From Sphingobacteriales bacterium (GTDB lineage Bacteria; Bacteroidota; Bacteroidia; Chitinophagales; Chitinophagaceae), in the NCBI GenBank assembly GCA_004144185.1, contig SEFP01000001.1:1116001-1180000 (forward strand): 64,000 nt of DNA, read 5' to 3'. The position numbers and the translations under genes were made by a program. Positions 1,462 through 35,307 of this stretch are shown in pieces. The notes under the pieces were generated by a model. That model saw only the letters and a list, made by a program, of their open reading frames with translations. It was not told the origin of the DNA and did no database searches. Positions within the stretch are counted from its first letter, which is position 1. The number at the start of each line of letters is the position of its first letter.

Positions 1462-1469
1462 TAAATTTG
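1462..1469 (+). promoter_or_regulatory. Bacteroidota -7 box TAAATTTG upstream of uvrD
   Basis: TAAATTTG matches the phylum -7 consensus TAnnTTTG exactly and ends seven bases before the ATG at 1477. Transcription would therefore start almost on the start codon. No clear -33 TTG is visible. Confidence 0.5.
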
Positions 1470-1476
1470 CGTCCTT

Positions 1477-3789
1477 ATGCAAGATTATTTGTCGGGGTTG
1501 AATCCGCAGCAGCGCGAAGCAGTAGAACACATAGACGGTCCATTGATGATTGTGGCCGGAGCCGGTTCCGGAAAAACGAAAGTGCTGACCACCCGGATTG
1601 CCCACCTGATGAACAACGGGGTCGATTCCTTCCGGATCCTAGCGCTGACGTTTACCAATAAAGCGGCAGCGGAGATGAAAGAGCGGATCGAGCATATTCT
1701 CGGCACGAGCGAAGCCCGCAACCTGTATATTGGTACGTTTCACTCGGTTTTTGCCCGCATCCTGCGCGCCGAAGCCGACAAGCTGGGCTATCCCCGCAAC
1801 TTCACCATCTACGATACAGATGACGCTAAAAGCGTCATCAAAGACATCGTCAAAGAGCTGTTGCTCGACGATAAGCATTACAAGGCGGCAGGGGTGTATA
1901 ACCGGATTTCGGCGGCCAAAAACTCTTTGATCGACGCGCAGACCTACCGCAGCGACAGTTTTATCCAGCAGGAAGATGCCCGTGCGTCGCGTCCGGCAAT
2001 GGCCGATATTTATACGCGGTACCAAAACCGGTTGCAGCGGAACGGTGCGATGGACTTTGACGATCTGCTGTTTAAAATGTATCAGCTGCTGACCCAGCAT
2101 CCCGATGTACTGGCCAAATACCAGCACCGGTTTCAGTATATCCTGATCGACGAGTATCAGGATACCAATGTAGCGCAGTACCAGATTATTAAGCTGCTGG
2201 GGGCCGTTACAGAGAATATCTGCGTGGTGGGCGATGATGCCCAAAGCATCTATTCGTTCCGCGGGGCCACAGTGCAGAACATTTTACAGTTTGAGCAGGA
2301 TTACGACGATGTCAAAACCATCAAACTGGAGCAGAACTACCGGTCTACGCAAAGCATTCTGAATGTAGCTAACACCATCATCGGCAACAACAAAGGACAG
2401 ATTCCGAAGAATTTGTGGACCGAGAACGCACCCGGCGAGAAGATCAAGCTGGTGCGCACCATGACCGACAATGACGAAGGACGGTTTGTAGCCGATGCGA
2501 TCACCGAGATGCGCCTGCGCGAGCACCGGCAAAACAAAGACTTTGTGGTGTTGTACCGCACCAACGCGCAAAGCCGGTCGTTTGAGGAAAGTCTGCGCCG
2601 GATGAACATTCCGTATAAACTGGTGGGTGGCACGAGCTTCTACCAGCGCAAAGAAATTAAAGATTACCTGGCGTATCTACGCACCATCGTGAACCCGGCC
2701 GATGAAGAAAACCTGAAGCGGATCATCAACTATCCGGCACGGGGCATCGGCAAGACCAGCATCGACAAGATTTCGGTGGTGGCATCGCAGCAGAACAGCA
2801 CCTTCTGGGAAGCGGTTCAAAACCCGGCTGCGGTTGGTATCAAAGGCAGCGGCGGCACGGCGATCGAAACGTTCGTGTACCTGATTAAGAGTGCGCAGAC
2901 GATGCTGGAAACCAGCAATGCCTATGATGTGGCCTTTCACATCGGTAAGCAAAGCGGGCTGGTGCAGGATCTGTACAACGACAAAAGCGTGGAAGGACTG
3001 GCGCGGTACGAAAATGTGCAGGAGCTGCTCAACTCCATCAAGGAATTCACCGAAACACCCGATGCGGAAGGCGAGCTGCGCGATAAGACGCTGGGTGCGT
3101 ATCTGCAACAGATTACGTTGCTGACAGACGCCGACCAGAACAGCGATGCCGATCAGAATGTGGTGCGCCTGATGACCATCCACGCCGCCAAGGGCCTTGA
3201 ATTTGCATGCGTGTTCTCAGTAGGACTGGAAGAAAATCTGTTCCCCAGCCAGATGAGCTTGTACGACCGCGAGCAGCTGGAAGAAGAACGTCGGTTGTTT
3301 TATGTGGCGGTGACGCGGGCGAAGGAAAAATTGTGGGTGACCTATGCCAACTCGCGCTACCGGTTTGGTTCACTGATTCAAAACGAGCCGAGCCGATTTA
3401 TTGACGAGATTCCGGAAGCGCACCTCGACAAAACCTTTACCGGCGCAGCGCACCGGGCCAATGGTTCGGCGGGCGCATTTGGCGGCCGTTCCGGAAGCGG
3501 CGGCGGACGGGGCGAAGACATCCGCGGGGAGAAAACCTCGTTGAAGTCGATTGCCCAGCAGATGCAGAAAAACGCCGCCAAAGCGCATGTGCCATCAGCT
3601 GACTTTAAAGCCGACCATCCGGCGTCATTAGAAACCGGGATGAAGGTGGAACACCAGAAATTCGGCTATGGTGTGATCCAAAGCTTGGAAGGCGGTGCGC
3701 AAAACCGGATTGCGTCCATTGACTTTGAAGGCGGCCACGGCACCAAGAAAATCATGCTGAATTACGCCCGACTGCGGATCGTGGAGTAA
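1477..3789 (+). CDS. uvrD: ATP-dependent DNA helicase, UvrD/PcrA type (SF1A)
   Basis: A 770-residue 3'-5' DNA helicase of the UvrD/PcrA/Rep group, acting in excision repair, replication restart and removal of stalled RNA polymerase. Visible motifs: Q-motif L-N-P-Q-Q-R-E-A; Walker A A-G-A-G-S-G-K-T at 27-34; Walker B D-E-Y-Q-D-T near 223; motif V H-A-A-K-G-L-E-F near 567; motif VI V-A-V-T-R-A-K-E near 609. The C-terminal tail (about 720-770, G-M-K-V-E-H-Q-K-F-G-Y-G-V-I) matches the Tudor-like domain by which PcrA/UvrD contacts RNA polymerase, favouring UvrD/PcrA over Rep. A Gly/Arg-rich linker (about 665-690) precedes it. Transcribed separately from batA, with a -7 box just upstream. Confidence 0.95.
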   Translation: MQDYLSGLNPQQREAVEHIDGPLMIVAGAGSGKTKVLTTRIAHLMNNGVDSFRILALTFTNKAAAEMKERIEHILGTSEARNLYIGTFHSVFARILRAEADKLGYPRNFTIYDTDDAKSVIKDIVKELLLDDKHYKAAGVYNRISAAKNSLIDAQTYRSDSFIQQEDARASRPAMADIYTRYQNRLQRNGAMDFDDLLFKMYQLLTQHPDVLAKYQHRFQYILIDEYQDTNVAQYQIIKLLGAVTENICVVGDDAQSIYSFRGATVQNILQFEQDYDDVKTIKLEQNYRSTQSILNVANTIIGNNKGQIPKNLWTENAPGEKIKLVRTMTDNDEGRFVADAITEMRLREHRQNKDFVVLYRTNAQSRSFEESLRRMNIPYKLVGGTSFYQRKEIKDYLAYLRTIVNPADEENLKRIINYPARGIGKTSIDKISVVASQQNSTFWEAVQNPAAVGIKGSGGTAIETFVYLIKSAQTMLETSNAYDVAFHIGKQSGLVQDLYNDKSVEGLARYENVQELLNSIKEFTETPDAEGELRDKTLGAYLQQITLLTDADQNSDADQNVVRLMTIHAAKGLEFACVFSVGLEENLFPSQMSLYDREQLEEERRLFYVAVTRAKEKLWVTYANSRYRFGSLIQNEPSRFIDEIPEAHLDKTFTGAAHRANGSAGAFGGRSGSGGGRGEDIRGEKTSLKSIAQQMQKNAAKAHVPSADFKADHPASLETGMKVEHQKFGYGVIQSLEGGAQNRIASIDFEGGHGTKKIMLNYARLRIVE

Positions 3790-3819
3790 GGCTTAGGACA
3801 AAAAATAGTATTTTCAATT

Positions 3820-4230
3820 ATGGCTTATACTTCTTTGCGAGTAATTAGAATACCCGCAGATGATGGCAAGGGCGGTTACAATATTTCTAAAATAGATGAT
3901 TTTGAATATGTAAATCCTATTGATTTCTATGAATATTGTATTGTCAATTCATTTGCCAACATGGATTATAATATTTTTTCAGCAAGGTATCCACAAATAT
4001 CTCCTGAGCTTATAAAATTTAATGCTCAAAGAAGTGCAGTGGATACTTGGTTAGAATTACTCAAAAAAATTAGAGGAACGGAAATAACCAAAAACGTATT
4101 ATCTGCTTTTAAAGCAGATAGTAAAAAAGTACAGGTAAAGTCATTAAAAAGTGAATCACTTGGCTATGGGAATCAACTTTTGGCTTTAGCCTTCAAATTA
4201 TGGGAAGATTATGGATATACCCTTAGTTAA
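3820..4230 (+). CDS. Hypothetical protein in AT-rich islet (gene 1)
   Basis: A 136-residue protein that I do not recognise. No signal peptide or membrane span. A short strand-like N-terminus (S-L-R-V-I-R-I-P) leads into a mixed acidic/aromatic segment (K-I-D-D-F-E-Y-V) and a helical C-terminal half ending A-F-K-L-W-E-D-Y-G. GC is roughly one third, far below the genes on either side, and codon choice is AT-biased, so recent acquisition is likely. It starts 30 bases after uvrD and is followed 42 bases later by another AT-rich gene on the same strand; the two are probably one unit. The islet has no TTCCGGAA. It could be a small defence or toxin-antitoxin pair, but nothing in the sequence proves that. 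Confidence 0.6.
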   Translation: MAYTSLRVIRIPADDGKGGYNISKIDDFEYVNPIDFYEYCIVNSFANMDYNIFSARYPQISPELIKFNAQRSAVDTWLELLKKIRGTEITKNVLSAFKADSKKVQVKSLKSESLGYGNQLLALAFKLWEDYGYTLS

Positions 4231-4272
4231 TATACCTCTGAACATTTACATAACGGACTTGAGGAATCTAAA

Positions 4273-4515
4273 ATGCCACTTCTTGTAGAAGCAAGAGGCA
4301 ATTATATAAATAAGGTTGGCGACACTGATTTAACGGATGGTCAACTTAGGCAGGCTATTGATCATAGAAAGGTAATAGTTGCAAAATTCTTTGACAACGG
4401 CGATCAATGGCATTGTTTATTTTTTACTTATGAAAGTTTGGGAGGAAAGGAAAGCTGGAATGACGGCCAACCTCATTATCATTATATATATGATAAATTT
4501 GGACTGTCAAGATAG
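4273..4515 (+). CDS. Hypothetical protein in AT-rich islet (gene 2)
   Basis: An 80-residue protein without signal peptide or membrane span; not assigned to a named family. It opens with P-L-L-V-E-A-R-G-N-Y and contains a dense aromatic/His stretch, W-H-C-L-F-F-T-Y-E-S-L near residues 42-52, then W-N-D-G-Q-P-H-Y-H-Y near 59-68, then D-K-F-G. I believe similar small proteins with G-Q-P-H-[YF]-H-Y and D-K-[FW] motifs exist in Bacteroidota, but I cannot name a function. AT-rich like the preceding gene and probably co-acquired with it. The clustered His/Trp residues could be a binding or catalytic site; this is inference. Confidence 0.6.
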   Translation: MPLLVEARGNYINKVGDTDLTDGQLRQAIDHRKVIVAKFFDNGDQWHCLFFTYESLGGKESWNDGQPHYHYIYDKFGLSR

Positions 4516-4687
4516 TATGTATTAACACAACTAAAAAGCAGAAAATATAATTTAGGCACCTTACCTCATATCGCGATGATTGTATAATAAGTGCATGGGT
4601 GCAAATTTATCATATGAAATTTATGTACTTTAGAGAGCTGAATCTGGCACGCTCTTGCTAGCCTAAAGAGGCTAAACCCTACCTTTT
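4516..4687 (+). other. AT-rich intergenic tail of the islet
   Basis: 172 bases without a gene. Composition stays AT-rich until about 4640 and then returns to the chromosomal average. AGCCTaaagAGGCT near 4660-4673 is a short inverted repeat just upstream of the next gene and marks the right edge of the islet; it has no T-run. No attachment-site duplication could be recognised. Confidence 0.4.
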
Positions 4688-4921: not shown

Positions 4922-4945
4922 TCCGTTCCGGAACGATTGAAGACC

Positions 4946-4991: not shown

Positions 4992-5017
4992 GAGCCGATA
5001 GGTTCAATCTAAACGCT

Positions 5018-10798: not shown

Positions 10799-10806
10799 TA
10801 TCTTTC
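10799..10806 (+). promoter_or_regulatory. Candidate -7 box TATCTTTC before the lipoprotein gene
   Basis: TATCTTTC is one base off TAnnTTTG and ends nine bases before the ATG at 10816. That spacing implies a leader of only a few bases. Confidence 0.35.
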
Positions 10807-10815: not shown

Positions 10816-11472
10816 ATGAAGATTCGATCCGGAAGAATCCTGTTAGGGGGTGCCTTGTTGGCAGCCTCTTCCTGCATGCCTACGGCGGGTCTGCAAAGCG
10901 GACGGAGCCTCGGAAAAGGTAATGGGGTGATTACACCCTACATCCACGGCGGGGACATGTATCTGCCCAGAGATGACTCGGAAGCGTACGCACGGTTTTT
11001 GCCCAGTGCGGGTGCTCAGTTTGCCACCGGAAGTACCGATCGGCTGGATTTGGGTGGCAAAGTAGACCTAAGCAGCTTTCTGACGGCTCAGGTCAGGTAC
11101 CAGCTTCTTGGAAACCGGCAATCCACCTGGGCGGTAGGAGCAGGTGCTGAATTCGGTCTGATGCTGGCTCCGGTACTTATCGGAGGTACTTTTTATTATT
11201 ACAGCGTTCCGGTGATCGTTTCCTATCATCCTACCGAGCGCCTGTGTGTCTATGCGAATCCCAGATACACATTTGGGCAACGACGAGTGGTTGAAAATGC
11301 CAACGGCTCCGGTAGGGATGCATTCAGACAAAACCGACAGCAATCCGGATTTGCATACGGCGTTTTGATGGGAAGCAAAAACAAGTTCTCGCTCGAGGTA
11401 GGCCACTTTAGCGATAACCTTTATCAGCCCACTCAGGTAGCACTAAGCTATACCATATGGTTTGATAAGTAA
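10816..11472 (+). CDS. Outer-membrane lipoprotein, beta-barrel-like
   Basis: A 218-residue exported protein from the ATG at 10816. The longer frame from 10750 adds a non-signal prefix, whereas 10816 gives a signal peptide ending A-L-L-A-A-S-S-C with a probable lipidated Cys20. The rest alternates polar and hydrophobic residues in strand-length stretches (V-D-L-S-S-F-L-T-A-Q-V-R-Y, G-T-F-Y-Y-Y-S-V-P-V-I-V-S-Y, L-C-V-Y-A-N-P-R-Y) and ends with an aromatic I-W-F-D-K, as outer-membrane barrels do. No named family recognised. The lipobox is loose (Ser at -1, Ala at -3), which this phylum tolerates. Confidence 0.65.
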   Translation: MKIRSGRILLGGALLAASSCMPTAGLQSGRSLGKGNGVITPYIHGGDMYLPRDDSEAYARFLPSAGAQFATGSTDRLDLGGKVDLSSFLTAQVRYQLLGNRQSTWAVGAGAEFGLMLAPVLIGGTFYYYSVPVIVSYHPTERLCVYANPRYTFGQRRVVENANGSGRDAFRQNRQQSGFAYGVLMGSKNKFSLEVGHFSDNLYQPTQVALSYTIWFDK

Positions 11473-11595: not shown

Positions 11596-11603
11596 TACTT
11601 TCG
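11596..11603 (+). promoter_or_regulatory. Candidate -7 box TACTTTCG upstream of serS
   Basis: TACTTTCG ends nine bases before the chosen serS ATG. This supports that start over upstream TTG codons, which would fall before the transcription start. Confidence 0.45.
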
Positions 11604-11612: not shown

Positions 11613-12884
11613 ATGCTGACCCTTCAACTGCTTCGTACCGAAAAAGACCGCGTGCTGGCCGGCCTCCGGAAAAAACATTTTGCTGATGCCGCCATCGTAG
11701 ATCAGATCCTGGAACTCGATGCCGAGCGCCGCAAAGTACAGGGCATCAATGATGCCCTTTCGGCACAGGTCAATGCCGCTTCCAAAAGCATTGGCGCATT
11801 GATGGCCCAGGGCCGGAAAGAAGAAGCTGAACAATCCAAAGCCGCTGTAGCTTCTTTCAAGGAAGAATCCAAAAACCTGTCGCAGCAACTGGATGGGATT
11901 GAAAAGCGCCAGCAGGAACTGCTGGTACAGCTTCCTAATATCCCACATGATTCGGTTCCGGAAGGCCGTACCCCTGAAGACAATGAAGTGGTGCGCACGG
12001 GTGGTGAACGGATGCCGGTTGCAGCAGATACGGTCCCACACTGGGACCTGGTGAGTAAGTACAAGCTCATCGATTTTGAATTGGGCAATAAGATTACCGG
12101 AGCCGGATTTCCGGTGTATACCGGCATGGGTGCCAAATTGCAGCGCGCACTCATCAGCTATTTTCTTGATTACAATGCCGAAGCCGGTTACCAGGAAATA
12201 CAGCCACCACACATGGTGAATGCAGCTTCGGCCTATGGTACCGGACAGCTGCCCGATAAGGAAGGCCAGATGTACCACGCAACCGTCGACGATCTGTATC
12301 TGATCCCGACTGCTGAAGTGCCGGTGACCAATATATACCGCGATACCATCACCGACCCGAAAGAGCTGCCCATCCGGATGACGGCCTATACGCCCTGTTT
12401 CCGGAGAGAAGCTGGCTCGTATGGCAAGGACGTACGCGGCCTCAACCGGCTGCACCAGTTTGATAAAGTAGAGATCGTTCAGTTCACCACGCCGGAAACG
12501 TCTTACGAAGCGCTGGAACAAATGGTGTTGCATGTCGAAAAGCTGATTCAAAGCCTGGGACTGCACTACCGGATTCTGCGACTCTGCGGCGGCGATATGT
12601 CGTTCACATCAGCTCTTACCTACGATTTTGAGGTGTGGAGCGGTGCCCAGGAACGCTGGCTGGAAGTGAGCTCGGTGTCCAACTTTGAAACGTTCCAGAC
12701 GGGCCGCCTCAAAGCACGCACCCGCGATGAAAGCGGCAAAACCCTCCTATTGCACTCTCTCAACGGTTCCTCGCTGGCGCTGCCGCGTATCGTGGCCGCT
12801 TTGCTGGAGCAGTACCAAACTCCTGAAGGCATCCGGGTTCCGGACGTCCTGCAACCGTATCTGCGAACCGACTGGATTTGCTAA
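11613..12884 (+). CDS. serS: Seryl-tRNA synthetase
   Basis: A 423-residue class II aminoacyl-tRNA synthetase that charges tRNA-Ser (and tRNA-Sec where present). Residues about 25-100 form the long coiled-coil arm that grips the tRNA variable loop. The catalytic core shows the TxE serine-binding motif I-P-T-A-E-V-P near 230; motif 2 F-R-R-E-A-G-S-Y-G-K-D near 264; R-L-H-Q-F-D-K-V-E; and motif 3 G-S-S-L-A-L-P-R near 387. The ATG at 11613 is chosen over the TTG at 11580, which would add ten hydrophobic residues and lie upstream of the promoter box. Length is typical. TTCCGGAA follows the stop by four bases. Confidence 0.95.
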   Translation: MLTLQLLRTEKDRVLAGLRKKHFADAAIVDQILELDAERRKVQGINDALSAQVNAASKSIGALMAQGRKEEAEQSKAAVASFKEESKNLSQQLDGIEKRQQELLVQLPNIPHDSVPEGRTPEDNEVVRTGGERMPVAADTVPHWDLVSKYKLIDFELGNKITGAGFPVYTGMGAKLQRALISYFLDYNAEAGYQEIQPPHMVNAASAYGTGQLPDKEGQMYHATVDDLYLIPTAEVPVTNIYRDTITDPKELPIRMTAYTPCFRREAGSYGKDVRGLNRLHQFDKVEIVQFTTPETSYEALEQMVLHVEKLIQSLGLHYRILRLCGGDMSFTSALTYDFEVWSGAQERWLEVSSVSNFETFQTGRLKARTRDESGKTLLLHSLNGSSLALPRIVAALLEQYQTPEGIRVPDVLQPYLRTDWIC

Positions 12885-22955: not shown

Positions 22956-24608
22956 TCACCGAACTTTCACCAGCCAGTAAGATGTCAGTGCTTCCGACCG
23001 CGCTTTGACCGACAAAAACGTGGGCGTCAGTTCGCTGACTTTAAAGCGTTCAAACCGTTTCAGCGTATCCGGAACCACACCGGCCCGTTGCATTTCGGCC
23101 AGTCCGGCCGCTCCGGTCAATACATACGGAAACCGCTGCTGGGTCGCCATACCGGAATCAAAGGTCGTCTTAATGATGCTTAGACTGTAAAACGGCAGGC
23201 TGTTCATCGGATCCTCGACCCGGTATGCCAGCACCTGGTCTCTGGGTATCTGGTGGGCAAGCAGATAGCGTCCTACCTGTCCGCCCAGCTGGTAGCGGAG
23301 CAGCGGGCGGTAAAAGAAATTGGTGAGAAACAGGTTGGTAATGAGAATCGCGGTTACGCTGGTCCACAGCATCCGGGCCGTTCCTTTCGAAACGCGGGTA
23401 ACAAGCAGCCAGACCACCACACAGTCCAACCAGATCATCAGCACCCACCAGGGCTGCGGAAAAACAATCGTTAGAATCAGCAGCACACCCAGCAGCAGCA
23501 GTGCACCCATTCCGGTTTGTATTTTGACAAAGGCGGATTTCCATTTGGGGTACTGGCCTTCGGCAAAATCCCGGAACAGACAAGCCACCAGAATGGCTGC
23601 CAGCGGAAACACCACGAAGATATAATGCGGCAACTGGTAGCGACTCATGCACAGCGACAGATACGTAAGCGTAAACCCACCCAGCACCAGTCCTTCGCTT
23701 TGCTTGGGAAGCTTGAATTTCTGTTTGATAAGCTTTCGGAAACCCGCGCCAAAAGCCAACAGAAACAGTAAAATCCAAGGCAGAAACGCCCAGAGCATCC
23801 CGACCAGCAAAAACTCCGGTCCGGCACCGTTGTCCCAGTCGCTGGCACCGGTAATCCGTCCAAAGCTCTGCGTCCAGAAGAAAAACGTAAGTCCGGAAAC
23901 ACCCTGCTTCCCGTCTACCAGGGCTTCTGGATGCAGATCGTACTGATAATACAGGCCCAACGCCATGGGTAGCAGCAATACGGCGATTACCAGGACGGCC
24001 ACCAGATACTTTGGATCGAAAATAAGGTTCCAGTCGCGGCGCAGCAGCGCATCGGCCCCGATCGCAAACACCGGCACAAACAGCGCAATCGGTCCTTTGG
24101 TCATCAGGCCCAGCGCCACGGCTACGGCGGTCAGCAACAACCAACCCCAGCGTTTTCCGGAGCGGTATTCCGCCCAGCCCCACAATGCAGTAGCCACCCA
24201 ACCCATCAGCATGGTATCAGTGCGCACATCATTGATCATCAGAAACAGTCCCTGGCAGGTGGCCAGAATCAGTGCAGCGAGTCGGCCCACCGCTTCGCCA
24301 TGCAGCCTGCGGCCCAGCCGGTGGGTGGCATACACTGCCAGCAGTGCCACCAGAAACGACGGCAGTTTATAGGCAAAATTGCTTACGCCCAGCACCTTCA
24401 TACTCAGGGCCGACAGCCAGAACAACAGCGGGGGTTTATCCAGATAGTTGCTGCCCCGGTCGTACAGAAACGTCCAGTTATTCGAAAAGCGCAGTTCGCG
24501 GGACATCTCGGCGTACTGCGCCGCATCTATATCCATCACATCGATAAACAAAGCGGGTAGGTGCAACAACAGCACCACCCAAAAGATCCAGGTAGGAATG
24601 CGGGGCAT
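22956..24608 (-). CDS. ArnT-like glycosyltransferase, family 39 (GT-C fold)
   Basis: A 550-residue polytopic membrane protein from the ATG at 24608; the longer frame to 24671 would run into batB. About 11-12 helices follow. The first periplasmic loop has D-I-D-A-A-Q-Y-A-E-M near 28-37 with the catalytic-type acidic pair, then Y-L-D-K-P-P-L-L-F-W near 58, the classic ArnT/PMT-related motif, and N-D-V-R-T-D-T near 130. GT39/83 enzymes take sugars from polyprenyl-phosphate donors on the outer face of the inner membrane to modify lipid A, proteins or glycans. The acceptor is unknown. Divergent from batB with 45 bases between start codons. Confidence 0.85.
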   Translation of the reverse strand: MPRIPTWIFWVVLLLHLPALFIDVMDIDAAQYAEMSRELRFSNNWTFLYDRGSNYLDKPPLLFWLSALSMKVLGVSNFAYKLPSFLVALLAVYATHRLGRRLHGEAVGRLAALILATCQGLFLMINDVRTDTMLMGWVATALWGWAEYRSGKRWGWLLLTAVAVALGLMTKGPIALFVPVFAIGADALLRRDWNLIFDPKYLVAVLVIAVLLLPMALGLYYQYDLHPEALVDGKQGVSGLTFFFWTQSFGRITGASDWDNGAGPEFLLVGMLWAFLPWILLFLLAFGAGFRKLIKQKFKLPKQSEGLVLGGFTLTYLSLCMSRYQLPHYIFVVFPLAAILVACLFRDFAEGQYPKWKSAFVKIQTGMGALLLLGVLLILTIVFPQPWWVLMIWLDCVVVWLLVTRVSKGTARMLWTSVTAILITNLFLTNFFYRPLLRYQLGGQVGRYLLAHQIPRDQVLAYRVEDPMNSLPFYSLSIIKTTFDSGMATQQRFPYVLTGAAGLAEMQRAGVVPDTLKRFERFKVSELTPTFLSVKARSEALTSYWLVKVR

Positions 24609-24614
24609 GGGATT

Positions 24615-24622
24615 CAAAGGTA
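24615..24622 (-). promoter_or_regulatory. -7 box TACCTTTG for the GT39 gene
   Basis: On the minus strand TACCTTTG matches TAnnTTTG exactly and ends six bases before the ATG at 24608. It lies 19 bases from the opposed batB box. Confidence 0.5.
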
Positions 24623-24641
24623 GTCTGCCGGCCGAAGGTTT

Positions 24642-24649
24642 TATTTTTG
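24642..24649 (+). promoter_or_regulatory. -7 box TATTTTTG for batB-batC
   Basis: TATTTTTG matches TAnnTTTG exactly and ends four bases before the ATG at 24654, so the transcript probably starts at or next to the start codon. Confidence 0.5.
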
Positions 24650-24653
24650 CATC

Positions 24654-26282
24654 ATGCTGTCTTTTCATCATCCACAGTGGCTATGGGGTTTGTTGCTTGT
24701 GCTTTTGGCCGGTGTGATCTGGATCGGTCACCGACGCTGGCAGCAAACCAGGCTGAAAACGCTTGCTGATGCCTCTCTGCAGGGAAGCCTGTGGGCGTCC
24801 GGATCCATGCCTTCTGGAACAAACCCGATTGCCGGTCTACTGCCTCTGCTGGCGTTGGCCTGTCTGGTCGTAGCGGCCGCTGGCCTATATCTGCCTAAAG
24901 GGCAACGCAATCAGCCGGCCAAAGGCACCGATGTAATGGTGGTGCTGGATGCCAGTCGGTCGATGAATGCCCGCGACGTGCAGCCCGATAGGATGCGCCG
25001 CGCCCGTTCATTTGTAACCCGGCTGGCCGAACAGTTGCAGGGCGACCGGATGGGACTGGTCGTATTTGCCGGCCGACCGTATTTACAGGTGCCGCTAACG
25101 ACCGATCGGGGTGCTTTCCGGCTGGCCCTGCAAGCCGTTTCACCGGAGGCCATTCCTACGCAGGGAACCATTCTTTCAACGGCGCTTACAATGGCTGCCG
25201 GAAGTTTTTCGGAACACCTGCGCCGCTCCCGGGTTCTCGTTTTGATTACCGATGGGGAAGACCACGATGAAGCTTCCGGAACAGCGGTGGCGGATTTGAA
25301 AAAAACCGGTGTGCAACTGATTGCGCTGGGCGTGGGCACGCCTGAAGGCATCGGGTTGCAGGAAGCAGACGGATCACCTAAGACCGACCTGACCGGCGCA
25401 CCAGTCATCACCCGGCTGGGCGAAGCGTCTTTACGCCGCCTGACTGAGGATGCCGGCGGCCGCTACCTGCGTCTGCGCGATGCGACGGCCAATGCGGCTG
25501 AAGTAGCACAGTTTATCCGAACACTGCCGGCGGCCTACCTGCCTAAAGATGCGGAACAGCCTTCCGAAAAAGAATACTTTCCGTATCTGGCGGCGGCGGC
25601 ATTGGTGCTGCTGGTGCTGCAGCGGTTGCTTCAGTCGGCGCGTTCCCGGAAGGCGGTTTCCGGAATAGGGATAGCAGGTGTGCTGTTGCTATGCAGTGTC
25701 CAGTACGCACAGGCGCAGAACAGGGGCTGGCAGGAAGGGACGCGCCTGTACCGCGAAGGTAAATTTCCGGAAGCCGCAGCCGCCTTTCAGCAGGCGCTGA
25801 GTGATTCCGTTACCCGTGCGGCAGCGCAGTACAACCTGGGCAATGCGCTGTACAAAAAGAAGGATTTCGCTGGTGCTGCCAAAGCCTTTGAGCAGGCTGC
25901 ACAGTCGCCGGGTGCTCCGGATGCAGCGTATAATCTGGGCAACAGCTATGCGGAGCAGAAGCAATGGAAACAGGCCATGGAAGCCTATAAAGAGGCGCTT
26001 CGATCGCAGCCGGGTACTGCAGATGCCCAGCGTAACTATGCCAAGGCTCGTAAGCATTATCTGCAGGAACAACAGCAGCAGCAGCAACAACAGCGTCAGC
26101 AACCCCAACCGAAGGACGATTCCCGTGAAGATCCTCGTGCGCAGAAAGAGGCTACCCCTTCTGATCTGAACAAAGAACAAGCCGAAAAACTGTTGCAGGC
26201 CCTCCGCCAGGAAGAGCAGAAAATAAACGATCGCAAACGCGAGGGGCAGGACACGCCCACGCCACCGGAAAAAGATTGGTAA
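24654..26282 (+). CDS. batB: BatB-BatC fusion: vWA membrane domain joined to TPR domain
   Basis: A 542-residue protein that joins two proteins usually encoded separately. Residues 1-330 are BatB: hydrophobic segments near 8-24 and 60-80, a vWA domain with MIDAS D-A-S-R-S near 98-102 and I-T-D-G-E-D near 196, then a helix near 305-322. A second hydrophobic segment near 335-352 (G-I-A-G-V-L-L-L-C-S-V-Q-Y-A-Q-A-Q) looks like the old BatC signal peptide. It leads into three TPR units (about 355-465; A-A-A-Q-Y-N-L-G-N-A-L-Y-K-K-K-D-F). A Gln run (near 475-485) and an acidic/charged tail finish it. It lies 23 kb from batA, under its own promoter box. Partner choice in the Bat complex is inferred. 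Confidence 0.88.
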   Translation: MLSFHHPQWLWGLLLVLLAGVIWIGHRRWQQTRLKTLADASLQGSLWASGSMPSGTNPIAGLLPLLALACLVVAAAGLYLPKGQRNQPAKGTDVMVVLDASRSMNARDVQPDRMRRARSFVTRLAEQLQGDRMGLVVFAGRPYLQVPLTTDRGAFRLALQAVSPEAIPTQGTILSTALTMAAGSFSEHLRRSRVLVLITDGEDHDEASGTAVADLKKTGVQLIALGVGTPEGIGLQEADGSPKTDLTGAPVITRLGEASLRRLTEDAGGRYLRLRDATANAAEVAQFIRTLPAAYLPKDAEQPSEKEYFPYLAAAALVLLVLQRLLQSARSRKAVSGIGIAGVLLLCSVQYAQAQNRGWQEGTRLYREGKFPEAAAAFQQALSDSVTRAAAQYNLGNALYKKKDFAGAAKAFEQAAQSPGAPDAAYNLGNSYAEQKQWKQAMEAYKEALRSQPGTADAQRNYAKARKHYLQEQQQQQQQQRQQPQPKDDSREDPRAQKEATPSDLNKEQAEKLLQALRQEEQKINDRKREGQDTPTPPEKDW

Positions 26283-28333: not shown

Positions 28334-29701
28334 CTATAGTTGTTGCAGTACTTCCTGCCTTAAAGACCCTTTGGCAAGGACCACATACAGCCAGCTCTGA
28401 TCGGCCAGCCGGAACTTGGTAAACCCTTTCGTACGCAGTTCCGGATGCTTTTTTAGCATTGGAAAATACGCTTCGGCCTGCCGGAGTTGCGCGGGCTTTT
28501 CGGCCTCCAGCACCAAGATTTTGGTAAGGGTACTGCTGCGCATTTTCTCCAGGCCGGCGGGTGTTACCGGTGTCATTGTATAGCTCTGCGCCGTTACCGG
28601 AAATTGCTGCGAAAACAGGGCTGCATCGGCATCGCTGGATGCGATCAGAAACCGGTTGGTAAACAAATGCGCGGCTTCGTTTTCCCATTGCGGAAACTTA
28701 CTAGCATACAGACGACAGTAGTCCGCTACAAAGGCGCTGTCAATGGTTTTGTTCTGAGCGAGGTATTCGGCGACCGTCGGGTAGATGGCTTTGGCCATTT
28801 CATTCCGGTATTTGTTGTTGTACCAGGAGCCGGCGTCCAGTTCGCCGGTCAGTGCCAGGAAGGCCGCACCGTTTCCAAGGGCTGTTGCCTGCGCTTCGTT
28901 GAGAAGCAGGTACGCATTCCAGGCGCCGGGTACTGGATTTTTCCGGAAAGCCGCCTGAAGTTGTTCTTTCAAAGTGATTGGTTGCTCATCATACAGGATA
29001 TGCGCCATCTCGTGGAGCGTGACCGAGAGTAGCATTTCATAATCGCGCTCGCCTTCCGGAAGGGCACTGACGCTGCAATCGGCAAAAGCAGTGGCCCGGA
29101 ACTGGCGGCTTTTAGGCAATGGATAAAAGGCTACCTGAAACGTATCGGTTCCGGAATCAGACTGTCCGTGGAAGACACTCATTTTCCGGAAAAAATCGAC
29201 CACGACCGGTCTGTGAAGCGCTTGTGTACAGGCCTGGAGTTGCTGATTAAATTGGGCTTCCAAAGGTGCGTACACCAGTGTGTCGTATACCGGTGCAAAC
29301 AGTTCTAAGGTGCGTACCAACCGGGCCAGATCCAGCTTGGGCAGCAGGCCGGTCGACCGCTGTTTGAAATCGGTCAGATCCGCTGAAAGCAGCAGGTTGC
29401 GCTGCAACAGGTCCCGCGTCTGCATCGGGATTTTACTGAGCTCCGGATACTGTGGAAACTCATAGGTATAGTCGAGCTGCAGACTATCCAGATCCGTCAG
29501 TGCCGCGGCCCGTTCGGGCGTGTCGAAGCGGGAGCCCGTATACAACTTCTGAAACGAGTTGCCGGGCCGCCCGTTTCCGGAAAGCTGCTGCACAAATAAA
29601 TGCACCGCCAGCGGACGCGAAAACCGGACGTTAAAGTAAGGCGTTGCACCAGCCGTATGCCCAATAAGTCCGGCGAGAAGTAGGAAGAGAAGCGTCCGCA
29701 T
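28334..29701 (-). CDS. Secreted HExxH protein, putative metalloprotease
   Basis: A 455-residue exported protein from the ATG at 29701, which gives a signal peptide (T-L-L-F-L-L-L-A-G-L-I-G-H-T-A-G-A); the frame open to 29785 crosses a terminator. A zinc-protease-type L-H-E-M-A-H-I-L-Y-D-E lies near residues 225-235. A downstream Glu for the third ligand may be in L-N-E-A-Q-A-T-A near 265, which would give a gluzincin-like layout. The rest is helical with no named domain recognised. Substrate unknown; the HExxH motif alone does not prove proteolysis. A candidate -7 box TATCTTTC ends four bases before the ATG, and a TTCCGGAA copy overlaps the start codon. Confidence 0.7.
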   Translation of the reverse strand: MRTLLFLLLAGLIGHTAGATPYFNVRFSRPLAVHLFVQQLSGNGRPGNSFQKLYTGSRFDTPERAAALTDLDSLQLDYTYEFPQYPELSKIPMQTRDLLQRNLLLSADLTDFKQRSTGLLPKLDLARLVRTLELFAPVYDTLVYAPLEAQFNQQLQACTQALHRPVVVDFFRKMSVFHGQSDSGTDTFQVAFYPLPKSRQFRATAFADCSVSALPEGERDYEMLLSVTLHEMAHILYDEQPITLKEQLQAAFRKNPVPGAWNAYLLLNEAQATALGNGAAFLALTGELDAGSWYNNKYRNEMAKAIYPTVAEYLAQNKTIDSAFVADYCRLYASKFPQWENEAAHLFTNRFLIASSDADAALFSQQFPVTAQSYTMTPVTPAGLEKMRSSTLTKILVLEAEKPAQLRQAEAYFPMLKKHPELRTKGFTKFRLADQSWLYVVLAKGSLRQEVLQQL

Positions 29702-29705: not shown

Positions 29706-29713
29706 GAAAGATA
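29706..29713 (-). promoter_or_regulatory. Candidate -7 box TATCTTTC
   Basis: On the minus strand TATCTTTC, one base off TAnnTTTG, ends four bases before the ATG at 29701. The first C of the spacer belongs to a TTCCGGAA copy. Confidence 0.35.
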
Positions 29714-29788: not shown

Positions 29789-31078
29789 TTATCGGGCCAT
29801 CACGGTTTCGATTTCGTCTACGGTAATCGGAATGCCTTTAAACAGATCGACGCTACCGTTTTTGGTGAGCCAATAGTTGTTTTCAATCCGGATGCCCATG
29901 CCTTCTTCTTCAATGTAAATGCCCGGCTCGATGGTGAACAGCATGCCTTCTTTAACCGGCTCGTTGCGGGTGCCCAGATCATGCACATCCAACCCCAGGT
30001 GGTGGCCGATGCCGTGATAGAAATACTTCCGGAACGCAGGCTCTTCCTGGCCGCCGTTCTTGATATCAGCTTTGGTGATCAGGCCAATTTTCACAAGCTG
30101 CTTTTCCATCTCCTTGTTCACCTTCTCGATATAATCGGCATAGTTGATGCCCGGTTTCAGGATGGCCGCGCAGTAGTTGTGTACGTTCAGACAGGCGTTG
30201 TAAACCTCGCGCTGCCGGGGCGTAAACACGCCATCTACCGGAATGGTCCGCGACAGATCGGCTGCATAATTGCCATACTCTGCGCCGAAGTCCATCAACA
30301 GCAGTTCGCCGTCTTTACACTCCTGGTTGTTGTCGACGTAGTGGAGCACACGTGCGCGGTCGCCGGAAGCAATGATGCAGCCGTATGCGTGACGAGTAGC
30401 GCGATTGCGTATGAACTCGTGCGTGATTTCGGCTTCGATCTCGTACTCCATCACACCCGGCGCGACAAACTTCAGCACGCGGTCAAACGCCTTGCCCGTA
30501 ATAGCTATAGCCTTTTTTACGACCTCAATTTCTTCTTTGGTTTTGATCGAACGCAGGTCTTTCAGGATGCGGGCCGCCCGCTCGTAGCGGTGCAGCGGAT
30601 AGCGCTCCATCAGCTGATGCACAAACGTGAGATCGGTGCGGGGACTATCAGCGCCCAGACGGTCATTTTCGTTGGTCGCCAGATATACGGTATCCGCGTG
30701 GTGCATCCAGACCTGGAGCTGGGCATCAATCGAATCGACGTACTGCACATTCGCGATTCCGGAAAGGGCTGTGGCTTCGTCTTTGCGCAGCAGGTGACCG
30801 TTCCATTTTTCCAGCATTGCATTGGGCCGCTGCACGACCAACACTTCACGGCCGTTGGGATCGGCATTATCCGGATACAGAATCACCATCGTTTTTTCCT
30901 GCACTACACCGGAAAGCCAGACCACTGTGCTGTTGGCCTTGTACGCGTAGGTGGCGTCTCCATTTTCCGGAAACACAGGATTGGCGTGGAAGATGGCGAT
31001 GCTGTTGGGCGCCATACGTTTCATAAACCGCTGCCGGTTTTTAGTGTAGAGCGAAGACGGAATACCGGAATATTTCAT
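29789..31078 (-). CDS. pepP: Xaa-Pro aminopeptidase (aminopeptidase P)
   Basis: A 429-residue dinuclear-metal peptidase that removes an N-terminal residue preceding proline. The N-terminal domain (about 1-165) has the A-P-N-S-I-A-I-F opening common to bacterial PepP. The pita-bread catalytic domain shows the five metal ligands: Asp in L-M-D-F-G-A-E near 266, Asp in A-A-D-L-S-R-T near 277, His in H-G-I-G-H-H-L-G near 358, and Glu in E-P-G-I-Y-I and in R-I-E-N. The gene starts four bases after a TACCTTTA box and is divergent from the GNAT gene. Cytosolic, no signal peptide. Confidence 0.93.
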   Translation of the reverse strand: MKYSGIPSSLYTKNRQRFMKRMAPNSIAIFHANPVFPENGDATYAYKANSTVVWLSGVVQEKTMVILYPDNADPNGREVLVVQRPNAMLEKWNGHLLRKDEATALSGIANVQYVDSIDAQLQVWMHHADTVYLATNENDRLGADSPRTDLTFVHQLMERYPLHRYERAARILKDLRSIKTKEEIEVVKKAIAITGKAFDRVLKFVAPGVMEYEIEAEITHEFIRNRATRHAYGCIIASGDRARVLHYVDNNQECKDGELLLMDFGAEYGNYAADLSRTIPVDGVFTPRQREVYNACLNVHNYCAAILKPGINYADYIEKVNKEMEKQLVKIGLITKADIKNGGQEEPAFRKYFYHGIGHHLGLDVHDLGTRNEPVKEGMLFTIEPGIYIEEEGMGIRIENNYWLTKNGSVDLFKGIPITVDEIETVMAR

Positions 31079-31082: not shown

Positions 31083-31090
31083 TAAAGGTA
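31083..31090 (-). promoter_or_regulatory. Candidate -7 box TACCTTTA for pepP
   Basis: On the minus strand TACCTTTA (one base off TAnnTTTG) ends four bases before the pepP ATG, predicting a leaderless message. It is opposed to the GNAT box 17 bases away. Confidence 0.4.
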
Positions 31091-31115: not shown

Positions 31116-31157
31116 AGGCGAACGCCATCCACAGCAGTGCTTTTCTGAACCACGTCT

Positions 31158-31637: not shown

Positions 31638-31641
31638 GGGA

Positions 31642-32097
31642 CTACTGGCCAACTGGAAGCATTCGTTGCCGCAGGTATTGTTTTTCCCGGATCTCGGGGG
31701 TGTGCAGCAGCAAACCGCAGTCGAAACAGTCGATGGCAAGCGTCACGCGTGCATCGGCGCAGGCCTGAAGCCACCGGGCACGGTCAGAAAGCAGATCTGG
31801 TACCCACAGGGCACTCCGGGGCTCTTCCGGAAACGAGGGAAGTGCTTCGGAGAGCTGCGCAACCGGCACCCTATGGAACGTCGTATCCGGAAGGGCTTCT
31901 TGCAGACGGGTGGCGATTGGTTGCGAACCGGGCTTCATGAACACGTCGGTAGCCAGCCGGTAGGCGAGGGGCGAGTGAACGCCGTGAATGCCTTTGGCTT
32001 TCCGGAAAAACAAATAGCGTTGCAGCCACTGCGGCCACCGGAGCTGGCTGACTTCTTTCTGAAGCGCCCGTAGCGAGGTGTCGGCTACCGTTCCCAT
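31642..32097 (-). CDS. Shrunken methyltransferase-like protein lacking the SAM-binding core
   Basis: A 151-residue protein whose two ends look like the ends of a longer (about 230-260 residue) Bacteroidota class I methyltransferase family. The N-terminus has G-I-H-G-V-H-S-P-L-A-Y-R-L-A-T-D near 36-51. The C-terminus has R-V-T-L-A-I-D-C-F-D-C-G-L-L-L near 118-132 and R-E-K-Q-Y-L near 137. The intervening glycine-rich SAM motif, acidic loop and catalytic segment are missing; only about 65 residues separate the parts. The frame is intact, so the protein may still be made and have another role. The family assignment is from memory of the motif pattern. Overlaps folA by 13 bases on the same strand. 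Confidence 0.55.
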   Translation of the reverse strand: MGTVADTSLRALQKEVSQLRWPQWLQRYLFFRKAKGIHGVHSPLAYRLATDVFMKPGSQPIATRLQEALPDTTFHRVPVAQLSEALPSFPEEPRSALWVPDLLSDRARWLQACADARVTLAIDCFDCGLLLHTPEIREKQYLRQRMLPVGQ

Positions 32098-32579
32098 TGT
32101 TCAAACGTAAACGGAAACGGATGCCGGTCATCGGCTTCATGCCGTTCATCCCGGACCTTTTTCCACTCCGAGGGCGACCATTCCGGAAAAAACGTATCGG
32201 CATTCGGTACGCGGGTATGCAGGCGTGTCAGGTAGAGCCGGTCGGCTTGGGGCAATAAGGCTTCAAATAACACGCCGCCGCCGATGACAAAGCCTTCATC
32301 TGCCTCATACCCACGTAAGGCCTCCAGTGCGGCGTCCACGGACGTAAAGGATTGTACGCCTTCCGGAAGGTTTGGAATGGGTTGCGAAGACACGACCAGA
32401 TGAGGCCGGCCTGGCAGCACACCCCGGAGCGATTCCCAGGTTTTGCGACCCATCAGCATGGGTTTGCCCATCGTCGTCCGCTTAAAAAATTTCAGATCGT
32501 CGGGCAGGTGCCAGGGCATGGTGCCGCCAAAGCCAATCGCATGGGCTTCATCCAGCGCCGCAATAAAAGAAAGCGTCAT
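32085..32579 (-). CDS. folA: Dihydrofolate reductase
   Basis: A 164-residue enzyme reducing dihydrofolate to tetrahydrofolate with NADPH, needed to recycle the product of thymidylate synthase. Motifs: F-I-A-A-L-D-E-A-H-A-I-G near the start; M-P-W-H-L-P-D-D-L-K-F-F-K-R-T-T-M near 21-37 with the catalytic Asp; G-R-K-T-W-E-S-L near 44; and the NADPH motif V-I-G-G-G-V-L-F near 97. Length normal. thyA lies upstream on the same strand but is separated by about 400 bases holding a decayed gene on the other strand. The 3' end overlaps the next gene. Confidence 0.95.
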   Translation of the reverse strand: MTLSFIAALDEAHAIGFGGTMPWHLPDDLKFFKRTTMGKPMLMGRKTWESLRGVLPGRPHLVVSSQPIPNLPEGVQSFTSVDAALEALRGYEADEGFVIGGGVLFEALLPQADRLYLTRLHTRVPNADTFFPEWSPSEWKKVRDERHEADDRHPFPFTFEQWER

Positions 32580-32608
32580 TTTTTAGTGAATAGTAAATAA
32601 TTTGGCAG

Positions 32609-32987: not shown

Positions 32988-33778
32988 ATTGCTACCGGTG
33001 CTTTGATCGCCGGGTGGCTTTGGTAGTTTTCGAGGGTGAAGTCTTCGTATTGGAACGCAAACAGATCGTTGATGGCCGGATTGAGGCGCATGGTGGGATA
33101 CGGGAAGGGCTCCCGGCTCAGTTGCAAGCGCGCCTGCTCCACGTGGTTGCTGTACAGATGCACATCGCCAAACGTATGGATAAACTCACCGGATTCGAGG
33201 CCACAGACCTGCGCCATCATCATGGTCAGCAAGGCATACGAAGCGATATTGAATGGGACACCCAGAAATACATCCGCACTGCGCTGGTACAACTGACAAC
33301 TGAGTTTACCATTGGCGACATAAAACTGAAATAAGGCGTGACAGGGCATCAGCGCCATCTGCTTCAGCTCACCGACATTCCAGGCGCTGACGATCATACG
33401 CCGGCTGTCGGGATTGGTTTGAATCTGGTGCAACACGTCTTTGATCTGATCGTGGGTTATGCCGTCGGCACCCGTCCATGAGCGCCATTGGTGTCCATAG
33501 ACCGGTCCTAGATCGCCGTTGGCATCCGCCCATTCATCCCAGATGCGTACGCCGTGTTCGTTGAGATAGGCAATATTGGTATCACCTTTCAAAAACCACA
33601 ACAGCTCGTAGATAATGCTTTTGAGATGCACTTTTTTGGTCGTTACCAGCGGAAACCCTTCGGAAAGGTCAAAGCGGATCTGGCGGCCAAACAGGGATCG
33701 GGTGCCGGTGCCGGTCCGGTCACTTTTATCGGTTCCGGTCTCTAGGATTTCCTGAAGCAGCTGGAGGTACGGTTGCAT
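32984..33778 (-). CDS. thyA: Thymidylate synthase
   Basis: A 264-residue enzyme, the same length as E. coli ThyA, converting dUMP to dTMP with methylene-tetrahydrofolate. Motifs: [10 protein letters not shown] near 18-27 with the phosphate-binding Arg; the catalytic Cys in M-P-C-H-A-L-F-Q-F near 144-152; [13 protein letters not shown] near 164-176; and H-x-Y near 207. The C-terminal A-P-V-A-I closes the active site. The gene is complete although the pseudogene tail abuts its stop. Confidence 0.97.
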
Positions 33779-33787
33779 CGGGTGAAA

Positions 33788-35194
33788 TTATTGTTTGCTT
33801 CGGAAATGTTGGGTAATTGTGGCAGCCGTCAGGAAAATAAACACCGTTTCAAGTTGCAGCACCGGGATAATATGCCTGGGAACCACCTGGGTTATATACA
33901 GCACGGCAGCGTAATAGAAGCCGATAAACAACGCCAGGAACAGCAGCACCAACTGATTGGAACGAGGCAGTCTGCGCCCGTACGCGATGACCAGGGGTCC
34001 TGCGAGCACCATGAGCAACAGCCGGAGCTGATGCCATCTCAGTTGCACCCCATTGATAGACTCTTTAAAAAGCTGAATCCGGCAGTGGAAATTATCTGAT
34101 ACGCCGTACCTGCTTTGAAAAGTAGCATCAGGGTGCGGCATGAGGTAATAGTCTGTCATCTCCCCGTTGTGAGGCACCCACAGGCTGCTTAGATTGGGCA
34201 TGATGAAGTATTGAAAATATGCCAGTGGGTATTGTTTCTGAAACGCGCTGCCATACCGGGAAAACCGATCGGCCAGTGCATACCAGCCGCCCCATTCTTC
34301 CGGATGATTAGGAGCATAGGCCCGTTCCAGTTGAACCATAGGGCTTTTTTCAGTCCACAAGAAATCGGTGGTCACAGGCAACGGCTGAAAACTCATAGTG
34401 TCCAGGTACTCGTAAAAATACCGGTGCAGACTGTCCAGTTCCGGACCGGCATTCAACGATTCAAAAGGACGACCTTCCTGTTGCAGGCCCATCACTGCAA
34501 ACAGCGAGTTGTTGGTTTGGGTCCAGCCGGAAAACGGTGTTTGCACCGCCACATTGTAATGCCGGATGTTTCGCCAGATATCGAATCGGTACAATCCGAC
34601 TGTGAGCAGCGTGAGGGCGCCTATCTGAATCAGTTTCCTGGTTACAGGGGTGGTGATCAACAGCAGGATCACGATACTCGGCACGGGGTAAAACAGGGCT
34701 ATGTGACGCAGTTGCAGGCACGCTGCCAGCGCCGCCAGGTGCAGGTAAAACCAGTGGCTTTTACGGGTGCGGATAAACGCAATCAGGCTGGAAACGTAGC
34801 ACAGGGTACACCCGCTGAACAAACAATCGCTCAGAATATTGATGCAGCTGTACAGACCCGCCGGTTCCAACAAAACCAACATGAGAAGAACATATATCCA
34901 GGAGCGTCGTACCCAGTTCAAACCTGCCAGGGTGTAGATTAGCAGCAGGCCACTTCCGGAATACAATAGGAATTGCAGCGCTTCGATCAGGTAAATGCTG
35001 GTTGAAAAGGCGTATACAATCCTCAGAAACAAGGCATATCCAATCGGGCGTACACTGGGTGGAAGGTGTACACTCTGCCAAACATAATAGTTGCTGTCCC
35101 AGCTAATCTGAGGCATCGGATAGCAATACAGCATTCCGGCTATGGCCGCGAACAGAACGGTCAGTGGCAGAACGATAGATCGGCTTCGGAACAT
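33788..35194 (-). CDS. Polytopic membrane protein, GT-C-like, unknown
   Basis: A 468-residue integral membrane protein from the ATG at 35194; the frame upstream to 35272 adds a polar prefix. About ten hydrophobic helices, the first at about 7-25, are interrupted by a large hydrophilic periplasmic loop (about 215-360). The early loop I-S-W-D-S-N-Y-Y-V-W near 30-39 has the single acidic residue and aromatics typical of the first loop of GT-C glycosyltransferases, but no D-K-P-P motif follows. A lipid-linked sugar transferase is plausible, not shown. It lies next to a DPM-like GT2 gene in divergent orientation, which supports a glycan role. No named family recognised. Confidence 0.65.
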   Translation of the reverse strand: MFRSRSIVLPLTVLFAAIAGMLYCYPMPQISWDSNYYVWQSVHLPPSVRPIGYALFLRIVYAFSTSIYLIEALQFLLYSGSGLLLIYTLAGLNWVRRSWIYVLLMLVLLEPAGLYSCINILSDCLFSGCTLCYVSSLIAFIRTRKSHWFYLHLAALAACLQLRHIALFYPVPSIVILLLITTPVTRKLIQIGALTLLTVGLYRFDIWRNIRHYNVAVQTPFSGWTQTNNSLFAVMGLQQEGRPFESLNAGPELDSLHRYFYEYLDTMSFQPLPVTTDFLWTEKSPMVQLERAYAPNHPEEWGGWYALADRFSRYGSAFQKQYPLAYFQYFIMPNLSSLWVPHNGEMTDYYLMPHPDATFQSRYGVSDNFHCRIQLFKESINGVQLRWHQLRLLLMVLAGPLVIAYGRRLPRSNQLVLLFLALFIGFYYAAVLYITQVVPRHIIPVLQLETVFIFLTAATITQHFRSKQ

Positions 35195-35293
35195 GTAAAA
35201 ACTGGCTTTGCAGGCACAAGGTAAGGCGGTGAGAAGCCCGTTTCCCGACGACTGCTTCTGATCCGGAACCAACCGGATGGTTTCTAAAAATCA

Positions 35294-35301
35294 TACTTTC
35301 G
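35294..35301 (+). promoter_or_regulatory. Candidate -7 box TACTTTCG for the GT2 gene
   Basis: TACTTTCG, same variant as before serS and kmo, ends six bases before the ATG at 35308. Confidence 0.45.
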
Positions 35302-35307
35302 CGATTC

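Follow-up and report, generated by a model that had tools for sequence, protein, structure and literature searches.

According to our analysis, some promoters of the Chitinophagales bacterium studied here and of its relatives abut the start codon so closely that the first base of the mRNA probably coincides with this codon or is only a few letters away. The TAnnTTTG boxes found there are best read as genuine −7 elements of the primary sigma factor of Bacteroidota, and a sizeable minority of transcription units would be leaderless or nearly so, a reading to which we assign a probability of about 0.8. It is built on five observations, i.e., the boxes themselves, their excess over chance, a spacing preference across the family, the dependence of this preference on ATG, and the footprint that the box has left upstream of uvrD.

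Boxes adjacent to start codons and their excess over chance

The window is the whole stretch of 64,000 nucleotides that was analysed. An earlier note on it had listed eight boxes separated from an ATG by gaps of 4 to 9 bases, and all eight were located, three with the exact sequence TAnnTTTG and five with one mismatch. The exact boxes are TAAATTTG (1462..1469, + strand), at gap 7 from the ATG at 1477 of the uvrD/pcrA helicase gene (1477..3789, + strand; Pfam UvrD-helicase, 3.2e-90), which is predicted to be leaderless or near-leaderless; TACCTTTG (24615..24622, − strand), at gap 6 from the ATG at 24608 of a GT39/PMT-like gene (Pfam PMT_2); and TATTTTTG (24642..24649, + strand), at gap 4 from the ATG at 24654 of a batB-like VWA/TPR gene. 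The latter two form a divergent pair, both lying inside 45 bp.

The one-mismatch boxes comprise TATCTTTC, present both at 10799..10806 (+ strand), gap 9 from the lipoprotein ATG at 10816, and at 29706..29713 (− strand), gap 4 from the ATG at 29701 of an HExxH gene; TACTTTCG, present both at 11596..11603 (+ strand), gap 9 from the ATG at 11613 of serS (seryl-tRNA synthetase according to Pfam), and at 35294..35301 (+ strand), gap 6 from the ATG at 35308 of a GT2 gene (Glycos_transf_2); and TACCTTTA at 31083..31090 (− strand), gap 4 from the ATG at 31078 of pepP (Peptidase_M24 and AMP_N). The description of several of them as TAnnTTTC applies to two of these five, the others being two TAnnTTCG and one TAnnTTTA. 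The variant TAnnTTTC is unsupported and TAnnTTCG is supported: in the window's own genome the former (G8C) was found 4 times versus 2.5 in shuffles, hardly above chance, and the latter (T7C) 9 times versus 1.1, while G8A (7 versus 2.0), T7A (5 versus 0.7) and T1G (4 versus 1.0) also exceeded shuffles. The boxes of the lipoprotein and HExxH genes, neither of which has a Pfam match at 0.01, are weak since TAnnTTTC barely exceeds chance. Two further boxes came to light, namely the variant TAGCTTCG (43396..43403, − strand; gap 9, ATG 43386), absent from the earlier list, and the exact TACGTTTG (32102..32109, − strand; gap 4, ATG 32097), which falls within an upstream ORF (32085-32579). Scans of the window with Rfam at the gathering threshold and for tRNAs found nothing.

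Exact boxes at gaps 4 to 9 precede 4 of the 60 window genes (0.15 in shuffles, maximum 2), and boxes within one mismatch precede 13 of them (3.0, maximum 9, in 300 shuffles). Three of the 60 starts (10816, 24654 and 29701) were taken from the earlier note in place of those of the gene finder, a choice that favours the claim; leaving these three genes out, 10 near-box genes remain, 3 of them with an exact box. The earlier note had also suggested profiling box positions against start codons genome-wide, and this profile, computed on an 864 kb sample of the own genome with the gene finder's starts only, yielded an excess: 27 exact boxes at gaps 4 to 9 among 544 unit-start-like genes, with a shuffle mean of 1.56 and a maximum of 5 (200 shuffles). 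The best of the 29 other arrangements of the same letters reached 5 at these gaps. When no C was required behind the box, a count across the whole own genome showed nothing remarkable (38 versus 34 at gap 6). Chance matches in AT-rich intergenic DNA could be invoked, the six-letter box being short and shuffles accounting for 29 of the 68 own-genome matches within one mismatch; however, the count of exact boxes, the gap-4 excess over control in every one of the 79 family genomes surveyed below and the conservation at uvrD make this practically negligible as an explanation.

Of the exact boxes in excess, about 27% occupy the near position (gaps 4 to 9), the remaining larger share lying further upstream, and about 5% of the unit-start-like genes of the own genome have an exact box there. 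With transcription units assigned from spacing and orientation only, near boxes were commoner at unit starts (56/1158) than at operon-internal genes (6/323), a modest difference (p=0.018). The real message of a near-box gene might instead come from a second promoter further upstream and carry an ordinary leader, and another TAnnTTYG indeed lies within 92 bases in 3 of 37 near-box genes; yet this share is smaller than the 119/544 among all unit-start genes, which renders such an origin very improbable as far as TAnnTTYG promoters are concerned.

Spacing, start-codon preference and conservation among relatives

We surveyed 79 genomes of the family for TANNTTTGC followed, after a gap of 4 to 7 bases, by ATG, with the reversed pattern as the sole control. 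At gap 4 the pattern occurred 2915 times versus 1061 for the control and was above control in 79/79 genomes; the corresponding figures are 1762/949 (70/79 genomes) at gap 5, 1759/1043 (68/79) at gap 6 and 1462/896 (63/79) at gap 7, although, with this single control, part of the excess at gaps 5 to 7 may be background. With GTG (539/680) or TTG (1177/1265) in place of ATG, gap 4 showed no excess in the family genomes, the ratios to control being 2.75 for ATG, 0.79 for GTG and 0.93 for TTG. Likewise, five relatives (550 genes) had 16 exact boxes at gap 4 and 9 at gaps 5 to 9 combined. Two large Bacteroidota families were at or near control, and one genome (G070) displayed the gap-4 pattern excess, yet no near box among its 74 unit starts.

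In the own genome the pattern count at gap 4 was barely over control (12 versus 8), gaps 7 and 8 are favoured as well as gap 4, and, counter to the ATG rule of the family, 3 of 9 gap-4 genes were called with GTG. The gap 7-8 class reflects either leaders of 3 to 4 bases or, possibly, a start site displaced downstream by about 3 bases. In the own genus (the window genome and G207), purines occupied the last three bases at gaps 7 and 8 in 10/63 versus 680/1926 (p=0.0005); a second set of relatives gave no clean fit to a start-site shift, and the base-composition evidence is mixed.

A conserved case is uvrD: relatives provided 80 distinct upstreams, of which 69 retain a promoter box next to the start codon. 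The exact box stands at gap 3 to 9 in 48 of the 80 (26 at gap 4, 17 at gap 5), versus 0 or 1 of 80 in each of six equal-width windows further up, and TAnnTTGC takes its place in 10/80 by our own count. Among named isolates, Flavipsychrobacter stenotrophus (L077) has the exact box and Taibaiella soli (L039) has TAATTTCG, both at gap 4; in Chitinophaga, an exact near box is missing from ten uvrD upstreams. Over the 45 bases preceding the box the DNA has diverged (mean identity 0.29), and in most relatives the protein shows conservation starting at residue 1. These data bear on the possibility that translation really starts at codons further downstream, with ordinary leaders and the upstream ATG unused. 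Start calls are imperfect, as the gene finder placed the starts of batB (24807) and of the lipoprotein gene (10876) downstream of those in the earlier note; still, the conservation of UvrD from its first residue below diverged DNA, and a gap-4 excess that requires ATG rather than GTG or TTG, make downstream starts unlikely.

The short gap of batB is not common to most relatives: in the 24 that could be resolved, the box was at gap 16-24 in 8, at gap 5 in 1, at gap 10 in 1 (of the same genus), further up in 1 and absent in 13. The serS box of one relative (G115) is at gap 17. Among 98 orthologue pairs the near box was common to 1, present in the own genome alone in 8 and in the other alone in 3 (p=0.32), too few common cases to extend the conservation seen at uvrD to other genes. 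The earlier proposal of widespread leaderless mRNAs thus stands as to the existence of a leaderless or near-leaderless class, well supported by the gap-4 peak, its restriction to ATG, its presence in all 79 genomes and the uvrD footprint, while "widespread" needs qualifying in view of the shares of boxes and genes given above.

Other signals and proposed mode of expression

No TTG peak that would mark a −33 element was found above 59 near boxes; in F. johnsoniae (Flavobacterium johnsoniae), too, this element is described as weak or far less evident (PMC6847099). At uvrD an AT-rich −18 element was detected at offsets −7 to −5; a set of 124 leadered boxes showed it at offset −6, and the 59 pooled near boxes did not show it. 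Shine-Dalgarno-like 5-mers were at chance (8 of 699 genes versus 10.4 in shuffles, all genes together). The absence that the earlier note had regarded as fitting leaderless messages is real, but as a trait of the phylum it is, taken alone, no sign of leaderlessness: Shine-Dalgarno scarcity is reported phylum-wide (PMC6847099, PMC3155529), Chitinophagia are described as Shine-Dalgarno-scarce with a conserved anti-Shine-Dalgarno core (PMC10783764), and StartLink+ assigns AT-rich non-canonical ribosome-binding sites to the FCB group (PMC9581028).

Alternatively, the box might serve translation, as a signal or as an AT-rich docking site for ribosomes, and be no promoter at all, given that bases upstream of the start codon are reported to tune initiation in F. 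johnsoniae (PMC6847099) and that the near box also occurs at 6/323 operon-internal genes. We deem this quite improbable, as the sequence of the box matches the sigma consensus exactly, the 29 other letter arrangements are without effect, its excess extends to leadered distances, it is commoner at unit starts, and at uvrD it alternates with TAnnTTGC, fitting the SM5 motif TAnnTTGY reported for F. psychrophilum (PMC9723704).

From these sequences we infer, as follows, where the 5′ ends lie, how long the leaders are, which sigma factor is at work and how the messages are translated. The primary sigma factor of Bacteroidota would bind the boxes as −7 elements, and in a minority of units RNA polymerase would start on the A of the ATG or up to about 5 bases earlier. 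The resulting messages would be leaderless or near-leaderless, and recognition of the 5′-terminal AUG, extrapolating from work in other bacteria, presumably drives their translation. A bolder version, which we consider doubtful, holds that Chitinophagales and several other Bacteroidota lineages use leaderless transcription as a standard route under selection, with single-base precision in the placement of the ATG on the start site, while it is near background in two large families, and that in the window's genus the start site moved about 3 bases downstream and the start codons with it (gap 7-8, not 4).

Significance and comparison with known systems

Bacteroidota do without Shine-Dalgarno sequences, and their choice of start codons is only partly understood. 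The start-site studies consulted, from Bacteroides and Flavobacterium, describe mostly leadered messages and uncommon leader-free expression; should leaderless messages arise from one-quarter of the recognisable promoters in other lineages, this conclusion would fail to extend phylum-wide. The promoter box could aid gene-start prediction in such lineages, and uvrD offers one conserved, testable case among named isolates. In the open-access papers searched, we recognised no description of leaderless gene expression in Chitinophagales.

The box matches the −7 box of sigma-ABfr promoters (TTTG / TAnnTTTG), and the spacing fits the box-to-start-site distance of 4-5 bases mapped in F. johnsoniae (PMC6847099). 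Unlike in these promoters, about one-quarter of the excess boxes here have the ATG on or close to the predicted start site, and no −33 element was found. Phylum and −7 box are shared with the leaderless mRNAs of B. thetaiotaomicron, where about 3.7% of 5′ UTRs are under 10 nt (PMC7366714), of F. psychrophilum, with 5.5% leaderless (PMC9723704), and of F. johnsoniae, with 13% having leaders not over 10 nt (PMC6847099); the leaderless class is small in those species, and our figure of about 27% of excess boxes is a different measure, not directly comparable. The SM5 promoters of F. psychrophilum, ascribed to an alternative sigma factor, carry TAnnTTGY at −12 to −5 (PMC9723704), the same place at which TAnnTTGC is found in 10/80 uvrD upstreams. 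Finally, the arrangement resembles that of the leaderless genes of Deinococcus-Thermus and Actinobacteria, on average 39.4% and 19.2%, respectively (PMC3160421), in having a promoter box shortly before the start codon and no Shine-Dalgarno sequence, and differs from it in the sigma box, in the smaller share of genes and, according to the family-wide test, in its restriction to ATG.

Boxes just before start codons in the window and its genome

The genome consists of 3.3 Mb in 47 contigs, and the window covers bases 1116001-1180000 of contig C1, with a G+C content of 53%. Its uvrD (ATG at 1477, plus strand) is closest to those of Bacteroidetes MAGs, Flavipsychrobacter, and Taibaiella, at about 69-77% identity; judged by this one gene, the organism is most likely a member of the Chitinophagales. 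Two stretches of the window (3820-4515 and 49495-50064) hold open reading frames whose third-position G+C is low, at 0.21-0.41 where most genes have about 0.6, and have possibly been acquired recently.

An earlier note had listed eight TAnnTTTG-like -7 promoter boxes at gaps (bases between box and start codon) of 4-9 and read them as signs of widespread leaderless messages. All eight were re-read at the claimed gaps, three being exact and five, of three kinds of variant, carrying one mismatch. The listed genes called lipoprotein (10816-11472, plus strand) and HExxH (28334-29701, minus strand) have no Pfam match at 0.01, and these names are those of the note. Of the window's genes, 60 have an upstream region; exact boxes at gaps 4-9 precede 4 of these, against 0.15 in 300 dinucleotide shuffles (maximum, 2), and boxes with at most one mismatch precede 13 (shuffles, 3.0; maximum, 9), 3 of which rest on starts set to the note's choice and 10 of which are independent of it. 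Only 45 bp (24609-24653), containing one box per strand, separate the divergent start codons of the GT39-like gene (ATG at 24608, minus strand) and the batB-like gene (ATG at 24654, plus strand), which leaves scant room for leaders, provided that the starts are correct.

A larger sample of 864 kb from the same genome (800 kb plus the window) was processed with a motif-free gene finder, giving about 700 genes, of which 544 were classed as unit-start-like by orientation and distance. These have 27 exact boxes at gaps 4-9 against 1.56 in 200 shuffles (maximum, 5), together with 54 at gaps 10-39 and 31 at gaps 40-89; the means over the 29 other arrangements of the box letters, used as a second control, were 1.6, 7.3, and 10.7, respectively. 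Near boxes (gaps 4-9) are rarer in operon-internal genes (6/323) than at unit starts (56/1158; seven genomes, P = 0.018). Once control means are removed, gaps 4-9 hold 27% of the excess exact boxes, the own genome and five relatives being alike in this respect. The note's observation is correct. Its interpretation as leaderless messages very probably holds for the near-box class as a whole but is less certain for any single gene, and "widespread" has to be reduced to a sizeable minority.

Spacing preference and distribution across the Bacteroidota

Pooling four relatives (family, order, and class together) gives 2, 17, 1, 1, 3, 0, and 2 exact or TTCG boxes at successive gaps from 3 to 9, with the peak at gap 4. 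Across 79 genomes of the family, there are 2915 instances of TANNTTTGC with an ATG at gap 4 and 1061 of the reversed pattern, and all 79 exceed the control. The pattern/control ratios before ATG are 1.86, 1.69, and 1.63 at gaps 5, 6, and 7, and at gap 4 the ratio is 0.79 when GTG replaces ATG and 0.93 when TTG does. Probable promoters of F. johnsoniae place the start site 4 or 5 bases past the box (PMC6847099), so that gap 4 would put it on the A of the ATG.

The gap-4 pattern was compared with its control in 198 Bacteroidota genomes, with families numbered as in our survey. It is in excess in the own class (1545 versus 664; 48/49 genomes above control), f23 (178 versus 28; 8/8), f33 (96 versus 42; 6/6), and f15 (249 versus 162; 11/15). 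There is hardly any excess in f16 (149 versus 127; 21/43) and none in f22 (264 versus 262; 9/25). The other 52 genomes, from 24 families, gave 461 versus 308, with 27 above and 19 below; among these families the excess is strong in f31 (62 versus 19; 3/3) and the single genome of f35 (19 versus 1) and absent in f12 (10 versus 23; 0/5). In sampled stretches of one genome each, near boxes were found at 4/64 unit starts in f23 and at 0/288 in f16, f22, and f15 together.

Retention at uvrD and apparent turnover elsewhere

For uvrD, 90 loci were collected (the best 80 of 576 confirmed, plus 10 from a second search), of which 84 were usable, 6 being left out for truncation, an unclear start, or a short upstream; these yielded 80 distinct upstreams. 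Exact TAnnTTTG lies at gaps 3-9 in 48 of them (26 at gap 4, 17 at gap 5, 4 at gap 6, and 1 at gap 7), and by manual count TAnnTTCG occupies the near place in 11 and TAnnTTGC in 10, so that 69/80 carry one of three forms, the chance level having been computed for the exact form alone. Six equally wide windows further upstream contain an exact box in 0 or 1 of the 80 each. Since the 45-base stretches just upstream of the exact boxes have a mean identity of 0.29, the position of the box is kept and its surroundings are not. The TAnnTTGC form (loci L084, L086, L091, L093, L101, L103, L105, L108, L243, and L246) sits where TAnnTTTG does elsewhere; at uvrD, the promoter class seems to switch between species while the spacing stays. 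The 11 exceptions are ten Chitinophaga-titled records, one with a one-mismatch box and all seven of those read lacking an exact near box, and G207, a relative of the own genus, with GAAATTTG at gap 5. In the window itself the uvrD gap is 7.

The gap of 4 at batB is not conserved among the 24 relatives, out of 29 fetched, with a resolvable start: the box lies at gap 16-24 in eight, at 5 in one, at 10 in G207, and at both 29 and 43 in one, and none was recognised in 13. A near box is present in both members of 1/98 orthologue pairs. Leaderlessness therefore seems to be readily gained and lost at most genes, and uvrD is the sole long-held case found, uvrD and batB being the only genes traced through the family.

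Own-genus spacing and comparison with known systems

Exact or TTCG boxes at gaps 4 to 9 number 8, 3, 3, 12, 6, and 4 in the own genome and 3, 1, 5, 2, 1, and 0 in G207. In the two genomes together, the last three bases before the start are purine-poor at gaps 7-8 (10/63 versus 680/1926, P = 0.0005) and not at gap 4 (11/33). After leadered boxes (those further upstream) of the own genome, the frequency of A is 0.13 at the fifth base (background, 0.22) and 0.32 at the eighth; in four relatives (background, 0.30) the fifth and sixth bases are A at frequencies of 0.38 and 0.44, but another set of loci from relatives gives 0.20, 0.42, and 0.48 at the fifth, sixth, and eighth. One reading is that the start site has moved about three bases downstream in the own genus, and another is that leaders of 3-4 bases are made; the signal comes from small counts and was sought after the fact.

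Leaderless messages in the Bacteroidota are already known and suspected, as published figures and surveys indicate. 5' UTRs under 10 nt make up about 3.7% in B. thetaiotaomicron (PMC7366714), leaderless messages 5.5% in F. psychrophilum (PMC9723704), and leaders over 10 nt 87% in F. johnsoniae (PMC6847099). In a 2011 survey that recognised only Pribnow-like boxes, 1 of 37 Bacteroidetes/Chlorobi genomes had leaderless genes, which the survey itself considered possibly underestimated in this group (PMC3160421), and a 2017 survey of base frequencies suggested leaderless mRNA and/or S1 for Bacteroidetes (PMC5397173). In the literature searched, we found no earlier report of the lineage pattern, the ATG-dependent peak at gap 4, or the uvrD case.

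Leadered boxes of the own genome and G207 tend to be followed by C, purine, G/C, C, C and then by A/T-rich sequence, a tendency that resembles a discriminator element. The TAnnTTGC form in ten relatives' uvrD upstreams has the form of TAnnTTGY, which in F. psychrophilum is the SM5 promoter motif and was put to the test by mutagenesis at one operon (PMC9723704).
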